Below, piece after piece: positions 37,940 through 43,572 of a stretch of 64,000 nt of DNA; positions within the stretch are counted from its first letter, which is position 1; each line of letters begins with the position of its first letter. The position numbers and the translations under genes are program-made. Under the pieces are notes generated by a model. That model was given only the letters and a program-made list of their open reading frames with translations. It was not told the DNA's origin and did no database searches. Origin of the DNA: Deltaproteobacteria bacterium (lineage in GTDB: Bacteria > Desulfobacterota > GWC2-55-46 > UBA9637); NCBI GenBank assembly GCA_030690165.1, contig JAUYHF010000004.1, positions 1 to 64,000 of the forward strand, given 5' to 3'.

Positions 37940-37968
37940 TTGACAATAGAATCTTTTTTGTGATAGAG
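37940..37968 (+). promoter_or_regulatory. Candidate promoter for the icd riboswitch leader
   Basis: A perfect TTGACA (37940-37945) lies 16-17 nt before a weak -10 (GATAGA or ATAGAG, 37962-37968). This would start transcription about 25 nt before the ZTP aptamer. Confidence 0.4.
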
Positions 37969-37994
37969 AAACATCCAGCTTGTAATTTTATGAG

Positions 37995-38070
37995 GTCTTC
38001 CGCAACTGACGGAATTAAGGTGGTTACCACCGGGGAGCGGAAGTTTATAAGGATAGCCGACCGTCTGGGC
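37995..38070 (+). ncRNA. ZTP riboswitch aptamer (pfl motif) upstream of icd
   Basis: The conserved pfl/ZTP sequence and folds are present. P1 pairs CTTCCG (37997-38002) with CGGAAG (38038-38043). CGCAACTGACGG follows the 5' strand. P2 is GGTGG (38019-38023) with CCACC (38027-38031), and GGGGAGCGG closes the first domain. The second domain, GCCGACCGTCTGGGC (38056-38070), carries the conserved CCGNCTGGGC. This class senses ZMP/ZTP, which builds up when 10-formyl-tetrahydrofolate is short. The next gene is icd, 79 nt downstream. Confidence 0.93.
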
Positions 38071-38120
38071 AAGATTGCAGATTTTAAAAAATCTGTTTTT
38101 TAGCTCCAGGCGGTTTTTTT
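38060..38120 (+). terminator. Riboswitch-controlled intrinsic terminator before icd
   Basis: ACCGTCTGG (38060-38068), part of the aptamer's conserved P3, can pair with CCAGGCGGT (38106-38114), which is followed by seven T residues. A small AT-rich hairpin (38078-38095) sits inside the loop. The mutually exclusive pairing is the usual ZTP on-switch layout: ligand holds P3 and prevents termination. Confidence 0.85.
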
Positions 38121-38148
38121 ATTACAAAAACTTTAGGAGGATTATAAA

Positions 38149-39372
38149 ATGGCAGAAAAGATTAAGGTTAAAAACCCTATTGTAGAGATTGACGGCGATG
38201 AGATGGCGCGGGTTATGTGGGCATGGATAAAAAAGCATCTGATTATGCCCTATCTGGATGTAAAACTTGAATATTATGATTTAGGGCTTCCCAAGCGGGA
38301 GGAGTGCAAAGACCAGATAACCATGGATGCTGCGAAAGCCATTGCCAAACACGGCGTAGGTGTAAAGTGCGCCACTATCACACCTGACAAGGCAAGGGTA
38401 GAGGAGTATAAACTCAGCAAACAATGGCCGAGCCCGAATGGCACCATTAGGGCGCATCTTGACGGGACTATCTTCCGCGAACCTATTATTTGTAAGAATA
38501 TTAAACCTGCTGTGAATTCATGGAAAAAGCCTATAATCATTGGTCGTCATGCCTACGGTGACGAGTATAAGGCGGCTGAATTTACCGTTCCCGGGCCAGG
38601 CACAGTGGAATTGGTTTATAAACCTGCGGATGGTTTACAGTCCACGACATTAACCGTTCATGAGTTTAAAGGTCGTGGTGTAACACTTGGCATGCATAAT
38701 ACTGAAAAATCTGTCCGCTCCTTTGCGCAGGCAAGTATAACATATGCATTACAGCGTAAAACAGACCTCTGGTTTTCTGCTAAGCAGACCATTCTGAAAC
38801 AATATGATTCCTTTTTTATGAATATCTTTCAGGAGGAGGTAAATAAAAGGAAGGGGGATTTTGAAAAGGCAGGCATCACTTACTGGTATACCCTTATTGA
38901 CGATACAGTAGCGCAGATAATGAAACACCCTGGCGGAATCCTCTGGGCTACAAAAAACCGCGACGGTGATGTGATGAGTGATATGATTGCAAGTGGTTTC
39001 GGTTCTCTCGGGCTTATGACATCTGTTCTGGTCAGCCCTGACGGAAAGATGGAGACAGAGGCTGCACACGGCACAGTAACCCGGCACTTTCGTCTGCATC
39101 AGCAGGGGAAAAAGACCTCTACCAATCCAACGGCAAGTATCTTTGCATGGACAGGCGCCTTAAAGCGCCGTGGAGAACTGGACAACACCCCTGATGTGGT
39201 AAAATTTGCCGAGGCTCTGGAAGATGCAAATGTTAAGACAATTGAATCAGGAACTGTTACCGGCGACTTGGCAAGATTGATTCACGAAACCTCTAAACCG
39301 CCAGAGGATTCCTATGTAGATACCGAGCAGTTTATCAAAGCAATTGCCAAAAGATTGGAGTCAAGTTTATAA
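38149..39372 (+). CDS. icd: NADP-dependent isocitrate dehydrogenase, eukaryote-type
   Basis: Icd interconverts isocitrate and 2-oxoglutarate plus CO2. The 407-residue sequence begins [21 protein letters not shown] and reads much like mitochondrial and cytosolic NADP enzymes ([48 protein letters not shown]), i.e. the homodimeric type II clade. The bacterial-type phosphorylation context is absent. The ATG at 38149 follows TAGGAGGATTATAAA. It is controlled by the ZTP riboswitch just upstream. Followed by aclB and aclA, it may run in the reductive direction to fix CO2. Confidence 0.95.
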
Positions 39373-39397: not shown

Positions 39398-40660
39398 ATG
39401 CAATTAACCGGTTTATTGTGGGGCAGTAAATTATTAAGACGTGTTGAATTCCCTTGTGCGGATGTGCTTGGGCCTGAGGCCAGCGTTGACGAAATTAAAG
39501 ACCTTATAAAGAAGAAGGGACAGGTCTTTATAAAGCCCATTTTTAAAGGCGGTGTGGGCAAGAAGGGGAAATCAGGCCTTATCGGCAGGGCAAGCGATAT
39601 TGCAACAGCTTTAAAGGAAAAAGAGAGGCTATATTTTGCAGAGCATCCTGCTGGCGCAGGAAAGGCAGACGGCGTTACATTTGAGGGCGGTGTTCCAGCA
39701 AAGAATGAGGTATATTTTTCAATAGCAGAAAGCACTGTATTCAGGGCCCCCACAATGACAATCACGCATCACGGCGGCGTTGACATAGAGGAACTTACCA
39801 AGGATAAGATAAAGGAGATTCCCTTTGACCCGCTTACAGGGCTTAAATCATTTCATATAGCAAATGCCCTTGAAGAGCTTGGGGCGCCGAGCGAGATAAT
39901 CAGCCCCCTTGTGCAGAATCTTCCGAAACTCTGGACGCTGTACAATAATTACGGGATGAATGTCATTGAGCTTAATCCCATAAGGATGTCGCCCGACAGC
40001 GCAGGCAGGCTTGTGCCGGTGGCGTGTGATTTTAAAGGTTCTTTTGATATAGACGACCCTGCATGGAAGCGTCTTGAACTGCCGCCGCATCTATTTGCGT
40101 CCGACTATTCAGAGTTTGAGCAGGAGATAAACCAGTTAAGAACATATCAGGGACAAAGCGATGTGTTTGTCATAAATCCCAAAGGGACAATAACAGCCCC
40201 GACATTTGGCGGCGGCGCAAACGCCCTTGTTACAGAGCTTCTTGGCGAGAGGGCGACAATATCCTCTGACTTCGGAGGCAATCCGCCTTATGCCAAGATG
40301 CTGGAGATTTCAAAGATTGTGTTTAAGTATTGGCTCGGCCAGTCCAATGTGCTTTTCATCATAGGCGGCAAGGCAAACAATACAGACATATACGAGACAT
40401 TCAGGGCAATGGCAGATGCGCTCAGATTGTATTTCCAGACTTCGGGGCCAGCGCCGATATTCGTTGTTGTCGGCAGGGGCGGCCCGAATCTTATAAGGGG
40501 TATGGCCTATATGAAGGATACAGTAGAATCCCTCGGCCTGCCGTACAGGTTCTTTGGTTTTGACAGCGCCATGTCAGAGGTTGTCAACTACGCGCTTAAG
40601 GTTGACCATTGGATGGAAAAGGAAGGGAAAAAACAGTTAAAAGAAAAGATGGGAATATAA
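39398..40660 (+). CDS. aclB: ATP-citrate lyase small subunit (ATP-grasp)
   Basis: The 420-residue protein has an N-terminal ATP-grasp domain (FIKPIFKGGVGKKGKSGLIG, NVIELNPIRM) and a C-terminal domain like succinyl-CoA synthetase beta (FGGGANALVTELLGER, FIIGGKANNTDIYETF). ATP-citrate lyase cleaves citrate with ATP and CoA to acetyl-CoA and oxaloacetate, a key reductive TCA step. Green sulfur bacterial AclB is about 400 residues, so the size fits. It follows icd by 25 nt behind AAGGAGC. Its stop lies within a 16-bp sequence repeated at 40828-40843. AclA/AclB naming varies between genomes. Confidence 0.88.
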   Translation: MQLTGLLWGSKLLRRVEFPCADVLGPEASVDEIKDLIKKKGQVFIKPIFKGGVGKKGKSGLIGRASDIATALKEKERLYFAEHPAGAGKADGVTFEGGVPAKNEVYFSIAESTVFRAPTMTITHHGGVDIEELTKDKIKEIPFDPLTGLKSFHIANALEELGAPSEIISPLVQNLPKLWTLYNNYGMNVIELNPIRMSPDSAGRLVPVACDFKGSFDIDDPAWKRLELPPHLFASDYSEFEQEINQLRTYQGQSDVFVINPKGTITAPTFGGGANALVTELLGERATISSDFGGNPPYAKMLEISKIVFKYWLGQSNVLFIIGGKANNTDIYETFRAMADALRLYFQTSGPAPIFVVVGRGGPNLIRGMAYMKDTVESLGLPYRFFGFDSAMSEVVNYALKVDHWMEKEGKKQLKEKMGI

Positions 40661-40843
40661 AAGACTGGGTCAAGTAGCAAGGGGACAACCCCCTTAAATC
40701 CCCCTTTGTTAAGGGGGACACAGGGGGTTGTGTCTCGCTTAGCGGGTTCAAGTTTGTAACTTGAACCCAAACAGTTCGTATAATGTAATAACAAATTTAA
40801 TGGAGCAGGTTACAAACCTGCTCCCGCAAAGATGGGAATATAA
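40645..40843 (+). repeat. Palindrome-rich insertion bracketed by a 16-bp direct repeat
   Basis: AAAGATGGGAATATAA occurs at 40645-40660 (the last codons and stop of aclB) and again, exactly, at 40828-40843. Between lie three hairpins: a CCCCC/GGGGG repeat (40695-40732) like the one in pyrK, an 11-bp stem at 40744-40768, and a 10-bp stem at 40802-40824. The layout looks like an insertion with a target-site duplication. Confidence 0.8.
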
Positions 40844-40860: not shown

Positions 40861-43572
40861 ATGCACAAGGCAGGAGTTAAGAAATTTCCATATTATGTGG
40901 GGGTTAATTCCCTTGCAGACATAGCAACAAAAGAGGACAGGGTGTGTGTCCTCAATATACTGGGAAACGAGAGCAGGTCTGTTACGCCGGTGAGCCATGA
41001 ATATTCAGGCGGCAATGTTGTGTTCGGCACAGGCCCTGGAAGATCAGGCCAGGTTCTTGATACAAAGCTTGGACCCATTCCGGTCTATAACTCTGTAAAG
41101 GAAGCAAGGGCTGCGGGTCATAAATTTAACACGGCAGTCATCTATCTTCCGCCTTCCGGTGTTAAGGACGGTGTTGCCGAGGTAGTGAGGCAAAACCCTG
41201 ATTTAAAAAAAGTAATAATCCTTACTGAAAAGGTATCTGTCCATGATGCAAGGGTTATAAGGGCAATCTGCCAGACAAACGGCGTTGATATATTTGGCGG
41301 CAACTGCCTCGGTGTAGCTGACGCTTGGAATAAGGTGAGAATCGGCGGAGCGCTTGGCGGCAACAAACCAGAGGAATCCATTGTAAAAGGCTCTATCGCT
41401 ATATTTTCAAATTCAGGCAACTTCACCACAACCATTGCAACCTATCTTCTTACAAATGGGTGGGGGACAACGACATCCATTTCCAGCGGCAAGGATGTCT
41501 ATATACATTTTGCGCCGAAGGAATTTTTCAATGCTATGGATAATGACAACAGGAGCAAAGGCGCTGTAATATATGTTGAGCCGGGCGGATACTATGAACA
41601 TGGTCTTGAGATAAACAAGCCCACAGTTGCCTGTGTTGTGGGCCGCTGGAAGGCAAAGCTTACAAAGGCGTGCGGACATGCAGGAAGTCTTGCAGGCTCA
41701 GGCGATGATGCAATGGCAAAGGAAAGATGGTTCATGGATTATTTTGGGGTAAACGGGATATATACGCCGGAAAAGCCTGTATTCAGCAAAAAGGGGGCTG
41801 TTGTCATAAACATAGCCCATATACCGGAGGCGCTTACAAGGGTAATGGAGCTAAACGGCATAAAGCCGGATTTTGTGTCCATGGGAGACCTCTCATTAAA
41901 GTGCTGGTTCGGGAATAATCAGGGGCTTAAGCTTTCAAAGGAACTTGATGTCAGGATAGCTGAGGCAACCATTCCGTATAATGAGCAGATAGAGGCGATA
42001 AGCAGGCAGATAGGCGCGCACTATCCAAGACAGATAATGAAAGACGCAAGCGGCGCTTCAATGATGGATGCAAAGACACAGGTGACAAAGGTTTACAATA
42101 TCCCTGTCCTTGATGCGTCCAGGAAATCTTTGGAAGAAAACCTCGTATTTTCTTTATTAAAGGAATATCCTGAGGGATACGCAAGAGACCTTGCAAACCT
42201 TGCATTTAATTCCTATGTGAATATGTGCGGCGATGCGGCGCTTATTGCCGCTGATGCCTCAAGGGATTCGGAAAATTCCCCAAATACAGCCATTGCCGCA
42301 GGCATATCCATAATCGGCAAAGGCAGGGTTAAGGTTTCTATGGACATATTATCTGCTTTGCTTGAATTGTTCCAGCATACAAAGATTGAGAATCCTGTGG
42401 CTAAGTTTGATTACAAGGAGATATTAAAAGGGCTGGGCAAGGAAAAGAAAGATACCATGACTGTAAAAAAGGATGATGTGCTTGCCAGCAAGATGCTTAA
42501 GAGAATAGAGAGGCTCGGCATTAACTCAATATTTATAAATTTTGTAAAGGACTCCGCAGCAGGAAAGCCGTCAAGCGATGCGCTTATGGCAGGCATGTGG
42601 GCGACTATCGGCTGGAACGCCCTTATGAGGAAGAAGGTTTCAAAAACAACATTCTTAAGCCTGCCGTGGTATTCAAGGGTGTTCTCGGCATTTGCTGCAT
42701 GCAGTGTGCCTGCCCTTAAGCACAAGGAAGATAGCTTCTGCGGCATTGATATTGACGAGGTCATTGAAAAACTGACATTCACAGAGATTGCTTTCATTGC
42801 TATGATAGGAAGGAAACCCTCACAAAACGAGTTGTTTGAGTTCTCGATGCTGCTTGGCCTTATTATATCAAACGGCCCGGGCACCATATCTGCCCAGGGA
42901 TGCAAGGGCGGGGTGAGCGCAGACGGCCCTGAGGACCCGTCAAGGGTGCAGATAAACAAGGCGTTTGTAGGTTTCCTGACACATACAGGTTTTGCGCATG
43001 GCGGGAACGGCTACGAGGCCATTTCATTCCTGATAAACCGCTTCAGGGACAAAGGGCTCAAAAGACCGGATGATAAGAAACACGGGCTAAATCTCAAGGC
43101 AATTGCAGATGAGTATGCGAAATGGTACGCAGGGTATAAGGCAAAGGAAAAGGCCATAGGTAACATAGAATATATGAAGGTGCCTTGCGTAAACCATCCT
43201 GTATTTAAGGGCAAGGCGGTAAATTATGATCCAAGGGAGCAGTTTGTAAGCAAGGTATTTGAGGAAAAGGGTATATACAATGTATTCCTTGATTTCTACC
43301 GCAGCCTTGTGCAATCTCTTTTTGATAACAAGGTAAGCGAGAATGTCTATTGCGTAAATGTTGATGCCGTGATTGCAGTAATCCTTTTAAAGATGCTTTG
43401 GGAGCCTTTCAGGGCAGGGAAGATTACGGAAAAGGAGATTGAATCCGCCGCATTTACCACATTTTTATTCGGCAGGATGATAGGCTCCGCAGCGGAGATA
43501 GACGACCACATAAACCGGGGCAGAAATATGGACACAAGGACGCCTGTAGGCAACTGCACATTTGTGGGATAG
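40861..43572 (+). CDS. aclA: ATP-citrate lyase large subunit, long divergent form
   Basis: Residues 1 to about 330 resemble succinyl-CoA synthetase alpha, with the phosphorylated histidine in CGHAGSLAGSG (His273). The C-terminal third is citrate-synthase-like (FTEIAFIAMIGRKPSQNE, SNGPGTISAQ, GFAHGGNGYEA, GRMIGSAAEIDDH). At 903 residues it is about 300 longer than the green sulfur bacterial subunit, the excess lying mainly in the middle (about 330-640). Where typical ACL has DHGP in the lyase active site, this protein has SNGP (Asn671), so a key His appears replaced. Divergent ACL forms are reported from Nitrospira-like bacteria, to which this may belong. The ATG at 40861 follows AGGGAG. Confidence 0.82.
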   Translation: MHKAGVKKFPYYVGVNSLADIATKEDRVCVLNILGNESRSVTPVSHEYSGGNVVFGTGPGRSGQVLDTKLGPIPVYNSVKEARAAGHKFNTAVIYLPPSGVKDGVAEVVRQNPDLKKVIILTEKVSVHDARVIRAICQTNGVDIFGGNCLGVADAWNKVRIGGALGGNKPEESIVKGSIAIFSNSGNFTTTIATYLLTNGWGTTTSISSGKDVYIHFAPKEFFNAMDNDNRSKGAVIYVEPGGYYEHGLEINKPTVACVVGRWKAKLTKACGHAGSLAGSGDDAMAKERWFMDYFGVNGIYTPEKPVFSKKGAVVINIAHIPEALTRVMELNGIKPDFVSMGDLSLKCWFGNNQGLKLSKELDVRIAEATIPYNEQIEAISRQIGAHYPRQIMKDASGASMMDAKTQVTKVYNIPVLDASRKSLEENLVFSLLKEYPEGYARDLANLAFNSYVNMCGDAALIAADASRDSENSPNTAIAAGISIIGKGRVKVSMDILSALLELFQHTKIENPVAKFDYKEILKGLGKEKKDTMTVKKDDVLASKMLKRIERLGINSIFINFVKDSAAGKPSSDALMAGMWATIGWNALMRKKVSKTTFLSLPWYSRVFSAFAACSVPALKHKEDSFCGIDIDEVIEKLTFTEIAFIAMIGRKPSQNELFEFSMLLGLIISNGPGTISAQGCKGGVSADGPEDPSRVQINKAFVGFLTHTGFAHGGNGYEAISFLINRFRDKGLKRPDDKKHGLNLKAIADEYAKWYAGYKAKEKAIGNIEYMKVPCVNHPVFKGKAVNYDPREQFVSKVFEEKGIYNVFLDFYRSLVQSLFDNKVSENVYCVNVDAVIAVILLKMLWEPFRAGKITEKEIESAAFTTFLFGRMIGSAAEIDDHINRGRNMDTRTPVGNCTFVG

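Follow-up and report, generated by a model that had tools for sequence, protein, structure and literature searches.

A ZTP riboswitch in front of an isocitrate dehydrogenase and ATP-citrate lyase operon, and its apparent place in a class-wide regulon

The ZTP riboswitch normally senses a shortage of one-carbon units for purine synthesis, and ZTP has so far been seen as an alarmone of purine and folate metabolism that acts on a few one-carbon genes. The genes reported under its control are purH, fhs, pfl, glyA, folD and those of further purine or folate steps (PMC2864571). A serine-synthesis target in Bacillus, controlled by a tandem ZTP/glycine switch, and one moeA case have also been reported (PMC9481103), and reviews list folate, purine and serine genes together with one moeA (PMC9481103, PMC7266159). 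Binding of ZMP or ZTP stabilises a pseudoknot and stops the terminator, which constitutes the ON mechanism of the family (PMC7337938, PMC2864571).

Here, we have analysed a window of 64,000 nucleotides from a Deltaproteobacteria bacterium and found an RNA of this family in front of the genes for isocitrate dehydrogenase (IDH) and ATP-citrate lyase. It shares with RF01750 riboswitches of the transcriptional on-switch type the fold, the core residues, the pseudoknot between J1/2 and P3 and a terminator that overlaps the P3 strand, but the targets in the window and in the class differ from the reported purine, folate, serine and moeA targets. We consider it quite probable that the element is a transcriptional ZTP on-switch for the icd-aclA-aclB operon and belongs to a ZTP regulon that extends across the class.

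Positions 37992-38077 of the forward strand, on which all features of the window given here lie, match the full length (1-86) of the Rfam family RF01750 (ZMP-ZTP) in cmscan with 64.2 bits (gathering cut-off 39) and an E-value of 4.3e-8; in a scan of its own whole genome the E-value of the aptamer is 3.5e-10. The first-pass annotation had claimed a complete pfl/ZTP aptamer and proposed an Infernal run with the Rfam ZTP model, for which the absence of a covariance-model hit would have spoken against the claim; the match is strong, and the helices and the pseudoknot lie where they had been placed. P1 is formed by 37997-38003 and 38037-38043, P2 by 38020-38023 and 38027-38030, and P3 by 38056-38058 and 38068-38070, while GACGG in J1/2 (38008-38012) pairs with CCGTC in the P3 loop (38061-38065) as the pseudoknot. 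These pairs were counted for the known ZTP structure on an alignment of 45 aptamers, 38 from the class and 7 from elsewhere in the phylum, so that the core and the covarying helices are seen to be common to the window and 44 relatives. In this alignment 97.7% of the cells are paired, 11 of the 21 pairs have changes on both sides, none of 500 shuffles was as good as the real pairing, and sliding the partners by 1-3 columns brought the pairing below 49% (at most 48%). The columns of the binding core (ACUG.C ... CG.CUGGG) are invariant in all 45 sequences. The U of CUGGG lies in the P3 loop, and a U of that loop touches ZMP in crystal structures (PMC7337938). A chance match is ruled out by the E-value and the class-wide conservation, and by its sequence the RNA of the window is an ordinary member of the ZTP riboswitch family.

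The switch layout is completed by an intrinsic terminator at 38059-38120, of which the 5' arm (38059-38070) is the P3/pseudoknot strand of the aptamer, the 3' arm reaches to 38115 and the U-tract occupies 38114-38120. Within it, ACCGTCTGG (38060-38068) is able to pair with CCAGGCGGT (38106-38114), which leads into seven T (38114-38120). The hairpin folds at -28.8 kcal/mol, the fold of the leader has a z-score of -3.8, and from the sequence overlap and the fold, terminator and aptamer P3/pseudoknot would be mutually exclusive. A similar platform of P3 strand and T-run is found in nearly all of 100 class leaders; the null for helix and T-run was a crude shuffle that keeps the T-runs, and the weight is placed on the repeated motif and not on its statistics. 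The alternative pairing of the P3 strand followed by seven T, which the first-pass annotation had taken for the standard on-switch, is thus borne out by overlap, fold and comparison with relatives. By analogy with the family, ZMP or ZTP would be the ligand and binding would turn transcription on. Since OFF-type ZTP switches have been proposed, as for moeA (PMC9481103), homology alone does not settle the direction of switching; the layout in the window is that of an ON switch.

A candidate promoter of the leader consists of TTGACA (37940-37945), a spacer of 16 nt and GATAGA (37962-37967); it scores 9 of 12, a match that is no proof, and begins downstream of the stop (37912) of the preceding CorC-like gene. 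Sigma-70-like sites of at least 9/12 occur within the 70 nt upstream of 96% of 99 class ZTP leaders, compared with 22% of shuffles. Since the T-run is only 28 nt from the icd start codon, there is no space for a separate icd promoter and leader. The sole candidate for such a promoter (38121-38150) has its -10 element on the start codon, and sites of this kind occur at the shuffled rate, so that it was rejected. A search of 20 loci with Rfam at the gathering threshold gave only ZTP riboswitches and tRNAs, with no second riboswitch between the terminator and the monomeric IDH gene.

As had been claimed, the gene behind the switch is icd and both ATP-citrate lyase genes follow. Behind a ribosome-binding site (AGGAGG, 38135-38140), icd (38149-39372) encodes a dimeric, eukaryote-type NADP-dependent IDH (NCBIfam NF006156, 635 bits; TIGR00127, 571 bits), and a first gene of this kind lies outside the purine and one-carbon association of RF01750, which is usual for the family but does not define it. 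The small subunit of ATP-citrate lyase is encoded by aclA (39398-40660), which has ~77-94% identity to orthologues beside the monomeric IDH gene; in the class orthologues at L088 and L050 the Pfam domain Citrate_bind is present. The large subunit is encoded by aclB (40861-43572), with the succinate-CoA ligase alpha and citryl-CoA lyase parts recognised by NCBIfam and 66-80% identity to the aclB of relatives. The gap of 200 nt between aclA and aclB holds palindromes, which might uncouple aclB from the switch. Two of these palindromes have GTTTGTAAC in common, and an exact 16-base direct repeat, AAAGATGGGAATATAA, at 40645-40660 and 40828-40843 borders the palindrome stretch, which has the appearance of an insertion or of a duplicated aclA end.

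To see what ZTP switches control in relatives, as the first-pass annotation had proposed, we read the targets in 100 leaders of the class and checked gene names with NCBIfam and Pfam on representatives. ZTP riboswitches are present in 47 of the 63 class genomes. The first gene is monomeric NADP-IDH in 34 leaders (32, plus L056 and L059, recognised in a broken or truncated frame), rnfC in 30 (29, plus L021 with a shifted frame), a class-V aminotransferase followed by serA-hisZ in 20, a CPA2-type antiporter in 5 (4, plus L028), sucC in 4 and pntA in 2. Single leaders precede ppa then pntA, aclA (L088, in G054), kup and the icd of the window, and one lies at a contig end. Not one of the 100 has a purine or folate gene as its first gene, and purH, fhs, glyA and folD directly behind the leader number 0. 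The survey thus returned IDH-aclAB in six families and no lost purine gene, which would have been the other ground for refuting the first-pass claim. In nearly every contig that extends far enough, aclA and then aclB come after monomeric IDH, and by our count from the survey tables the ZTP-IDH arrangement occurs in 21 genera of the 6 families. These counts are lower bounds, because in G006 a ZTP core upstream of monomeric IDH (L222 6089-6102) was missed by the covariance search, possibly through an insertion. From sequence reading, the rnf operon continues through rnfDGEAB to probable cytochrome assembly genes; the aminotransferase operon reaches serA and hisZ, and also purA in a contig read far enough. 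PurH is nearly universal in the class. The formate route, by FTHFS, is less widespread, with the enzyme encoded in 29 of 63 genomes.

The distribution has limits within and around the class. In G003 no ZTP core accompanies monomeric IDH-aclAB, and no ZTP match was obtained in families f7-f13, most of which have that IDH gene, often beside acl. None of six named genomes from a contig scan with the Icd of the window (matches of at most 61% identity, in scattered groups) has a ZTP riboswitch. Outside the class, ZTP was found in only 7 of the sampled phylum genomes, where gene names read from sequence give glyA, fhs, aminotransferase-serA and one probable transporter gene as targets. As ZTP elsewhere in the phylum precedes the classic one-carbon set (PMC2864571), it seems that the regulon was widened beyond this set within the class.

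The genome of the window carries three ZTP switches in a whole-genome scan, in front of icd-aclAB, sucCD-korABC (L216) and kup (L001). The L216 operon, sucC-sucD-korA-korB-korC, encodes succinyl-CoA synthetase and 2-oxoglutarate:ferredoxin oxidoreductase, so that this enzyme and ATP-citrate lyase are both present and both behind ZTP switches; two of the three switches therefore stand before genes for diagnostic reductive TCA steps. The kup arrangement seems to be a truncated form of the operon pntA-pntA2-pntB-ppa-kup, because its leader most resembles the one in front of this operon in G003, a member of the same genus. PurH is encoded in the genome behind none of the three switches. FTHFS is also encoded, and hence formate could supply one-carbon units there as well.

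How these operons may be joined by one signal is suggested by the known action of the switch. When 10-formyl-THF is short, PurH would stall and ZMP/ZTP would rise and bind the nascent aptamer; the stabilised pseudoknot and P3 would withhold the strand that the terminator needs, and icd-aclAB would be transcribed. The same signal would govern succinyl-CoA synthetase, 2-oxoglutarate:ferredoxin oxidoreductase, IDH and ATP-citrate lyase, the diagnostic reductive TCA steps. Relatives have the switch in front of rnfCDGEAB, pntAB-ppa-kup and aminotransferase-serA-hisZ-purA as well. We argue that low 10-formyl-THF would report low fixed carbon because serine, and through it newly fixed carbon, would be the source of most one-carbon units. 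A one-carbon alarmone could in this way double as a signal of fixed-carbon shortage, and high ZTP would jointly raise CO2 fixation through the reductive TCA steps, the supply of ferredoxin and NADPH, and the synthesis of serine. Of the physiology proposed in the first-pass annotation, the coupling of the switch to IDH and citrate lyase is upheld by comparison; its purpose, either 2-oxoglutarate/NADPH balance or reductive carbon flow, is still a matter of interpretation, and reductive carbon flow, with one-carbon and serine supply, agrees better with the other targets (sucCD-korABC, rnf, pntAB, serA). Evenly poised, in our judgement, is the wider proposal that ZTP is a carbon-fixation alarmone throughout the class, one riboswitch class coordinating the reductive TCA cycle (sucCD, korABC, IDH, ATP-citrate lyase), electron supply (Rnf, transhydrogenase, pyrophosphatase) and serine/purine synthesis, with a foreign IDH gene brought anew under ZTP control in the species of the window.

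The same on-switch could instead serve the oxidative direction, the regulon supplying NADPH and 2-oxoglutarate for folate reduction and transaminations. That IDH is NADP-linked in both enzyme versions and that pntAB and aminotransferase-serA operons are among the targets would agree with this, but the operon partners ATP-citrate lyase and korABC are enzymes of the reductive cycle, Rnf, able to make reduced ferredoxin, is also a target, and an oxidative IDH beside citrate cleavage would be a futile pairing; we regard the oxidative direction as unlikely. It is also conceivable, given a target set so far from purines, that the class aptamer is a ligand-shifted variant sensing another metabolite such as a TCA intermediate or a redox cofactor. 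The second pseudoknot pair is A-U in the window where others, several outgroups among them, have G-C (5 of 45 aligned sequences, both sides changed), yet the same A-U version precedes fhs in two other phylum genomes (L183, L185) and is therefore no marker of a new ligand by itself. With the core and the P3-loop U kept in all aligned sequences and serA among the class targets, a shift of ligand is quite improbable.

That the switch is a relic of a lost purine gene, with icd-aclAB expressed independently, we hold to be extremely improbable. No other genome of the order has the cassette at the site that it occupies in the window, where the gene after CorC in relatives is a different one, as such a relic might lead one to expect; against it stand the ZTP-IDH arrangement in six families with aclAB adjoining where contigs allow, the intact aptamer and terminator, the short distance from T-run to ATG and the absence of any purine gene directly behind a class leader, by which the loss of such a gene from this site was rejected. 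The history of the locus is more evenly balanced. Dimeric icd occurs in only 2 of 63 class genomes, those of the window (G000) and of G008, which are 96% identical in it; the G008 gene has neither ZTP nor acl adjoining, and no ZTP relic was seen by eye upstream of it. Monomeric IDH is found in 52 of 63 genomes, including G001-G003 of the same genus, and is absent from that of the window. The linkage of ZTP, IDH and citrate lyase is thus retained in the window with a different enzyme at a different place. One account is that icd-aclAB kept an ancestral ZTP leader while the IDH gene was swapped and the whole locus moved later, with no new assembly on a foreign icd. By a crude pairwise score the aptamer of the window is most like L006, a ZTP-monomeric IDH leader of G007, as this account would have it. 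Its expression platform is closest to the family's rnfC and kup leaders, not its IDH leaders, and the locus sits between CorC and pilB, away from the neighbours seen in G001, G005 and G006; a swap followed by a move is a real possibility that we place somewhat short of even.

Returning to the regulon, the Bacillus tandem switch acts on the route from 3-phosphoglycerate to serine as a one-carbon source, and the class likewise has ZTP-aminotransferase-serA-hisZ operons, with no glycine aptamer found at the one such locus scanned (L043). The class switch differs in extending to TCA, Rnf and transhydrogenase operons. Gene sets of the reductive TCA cycle with ATP-citrate lyase are likewise present here as aclAB, korABC, sucCD and NADP-IDH, but their control by a ZTP riboswitch elsewhere was not found in the literature searched. 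Nor was a ZTP riboswitch linked to IDH, ATP-citrate lyase or Rnf found there, earlier sporadic sightings being possible. For a known RNA, the genes of a cycle that fixes CO2 and of the electron supply to it thus appear to be a new set of targets. In this bacterial class, the central metabolism of CO2 fixation appears to be under a single signal; how a reductive-TCA organism perceives a lack of fixed carbon thereby gains an answer that can be put directly to the test. Membership of the regulon also offers a clue to the role of genes that one would not expect in it, such as the kup and CPA2 transporters. These two do not fit a simple one-carbon or carbon logic, which counts against the proposed purpose, and they point to monovalent cation transport within the regulon. 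The CPA2-family Na+/H+ antiporter gene behind the switch is a feature of genus g17 (L062, L071, L076, L077, L028).

Several further observations were made at individual loci. Of the five ZTP switches in G029, two stand in front of distinct copies of aminotransferase-serA (L048, L066). The monomeric IDH frame of L056 (G048:C37:60146-62311) has stops (2 TGA, 3 TAA) behind an intact ZTP switch, through decay or assembly error. In G003 and G060, a small gene of ~134 codons with an MGRGPE/K motif precedes monomeric IDH without a ZTP leader (L221 6147-6548, L226 8975-9373). The same palindrome (CCCCCACACCAAA...TTTGGTGTGGGGG) lies within the J1/2 loop of two ZTP aptamers (L013 1528-1556, L014 1566-1594) that front different genes, monomeric IDH in G001 and sucC in G007, and a further copy is present in L234; it seems that a mobile hairpin is tolerated inside the riboswitch.
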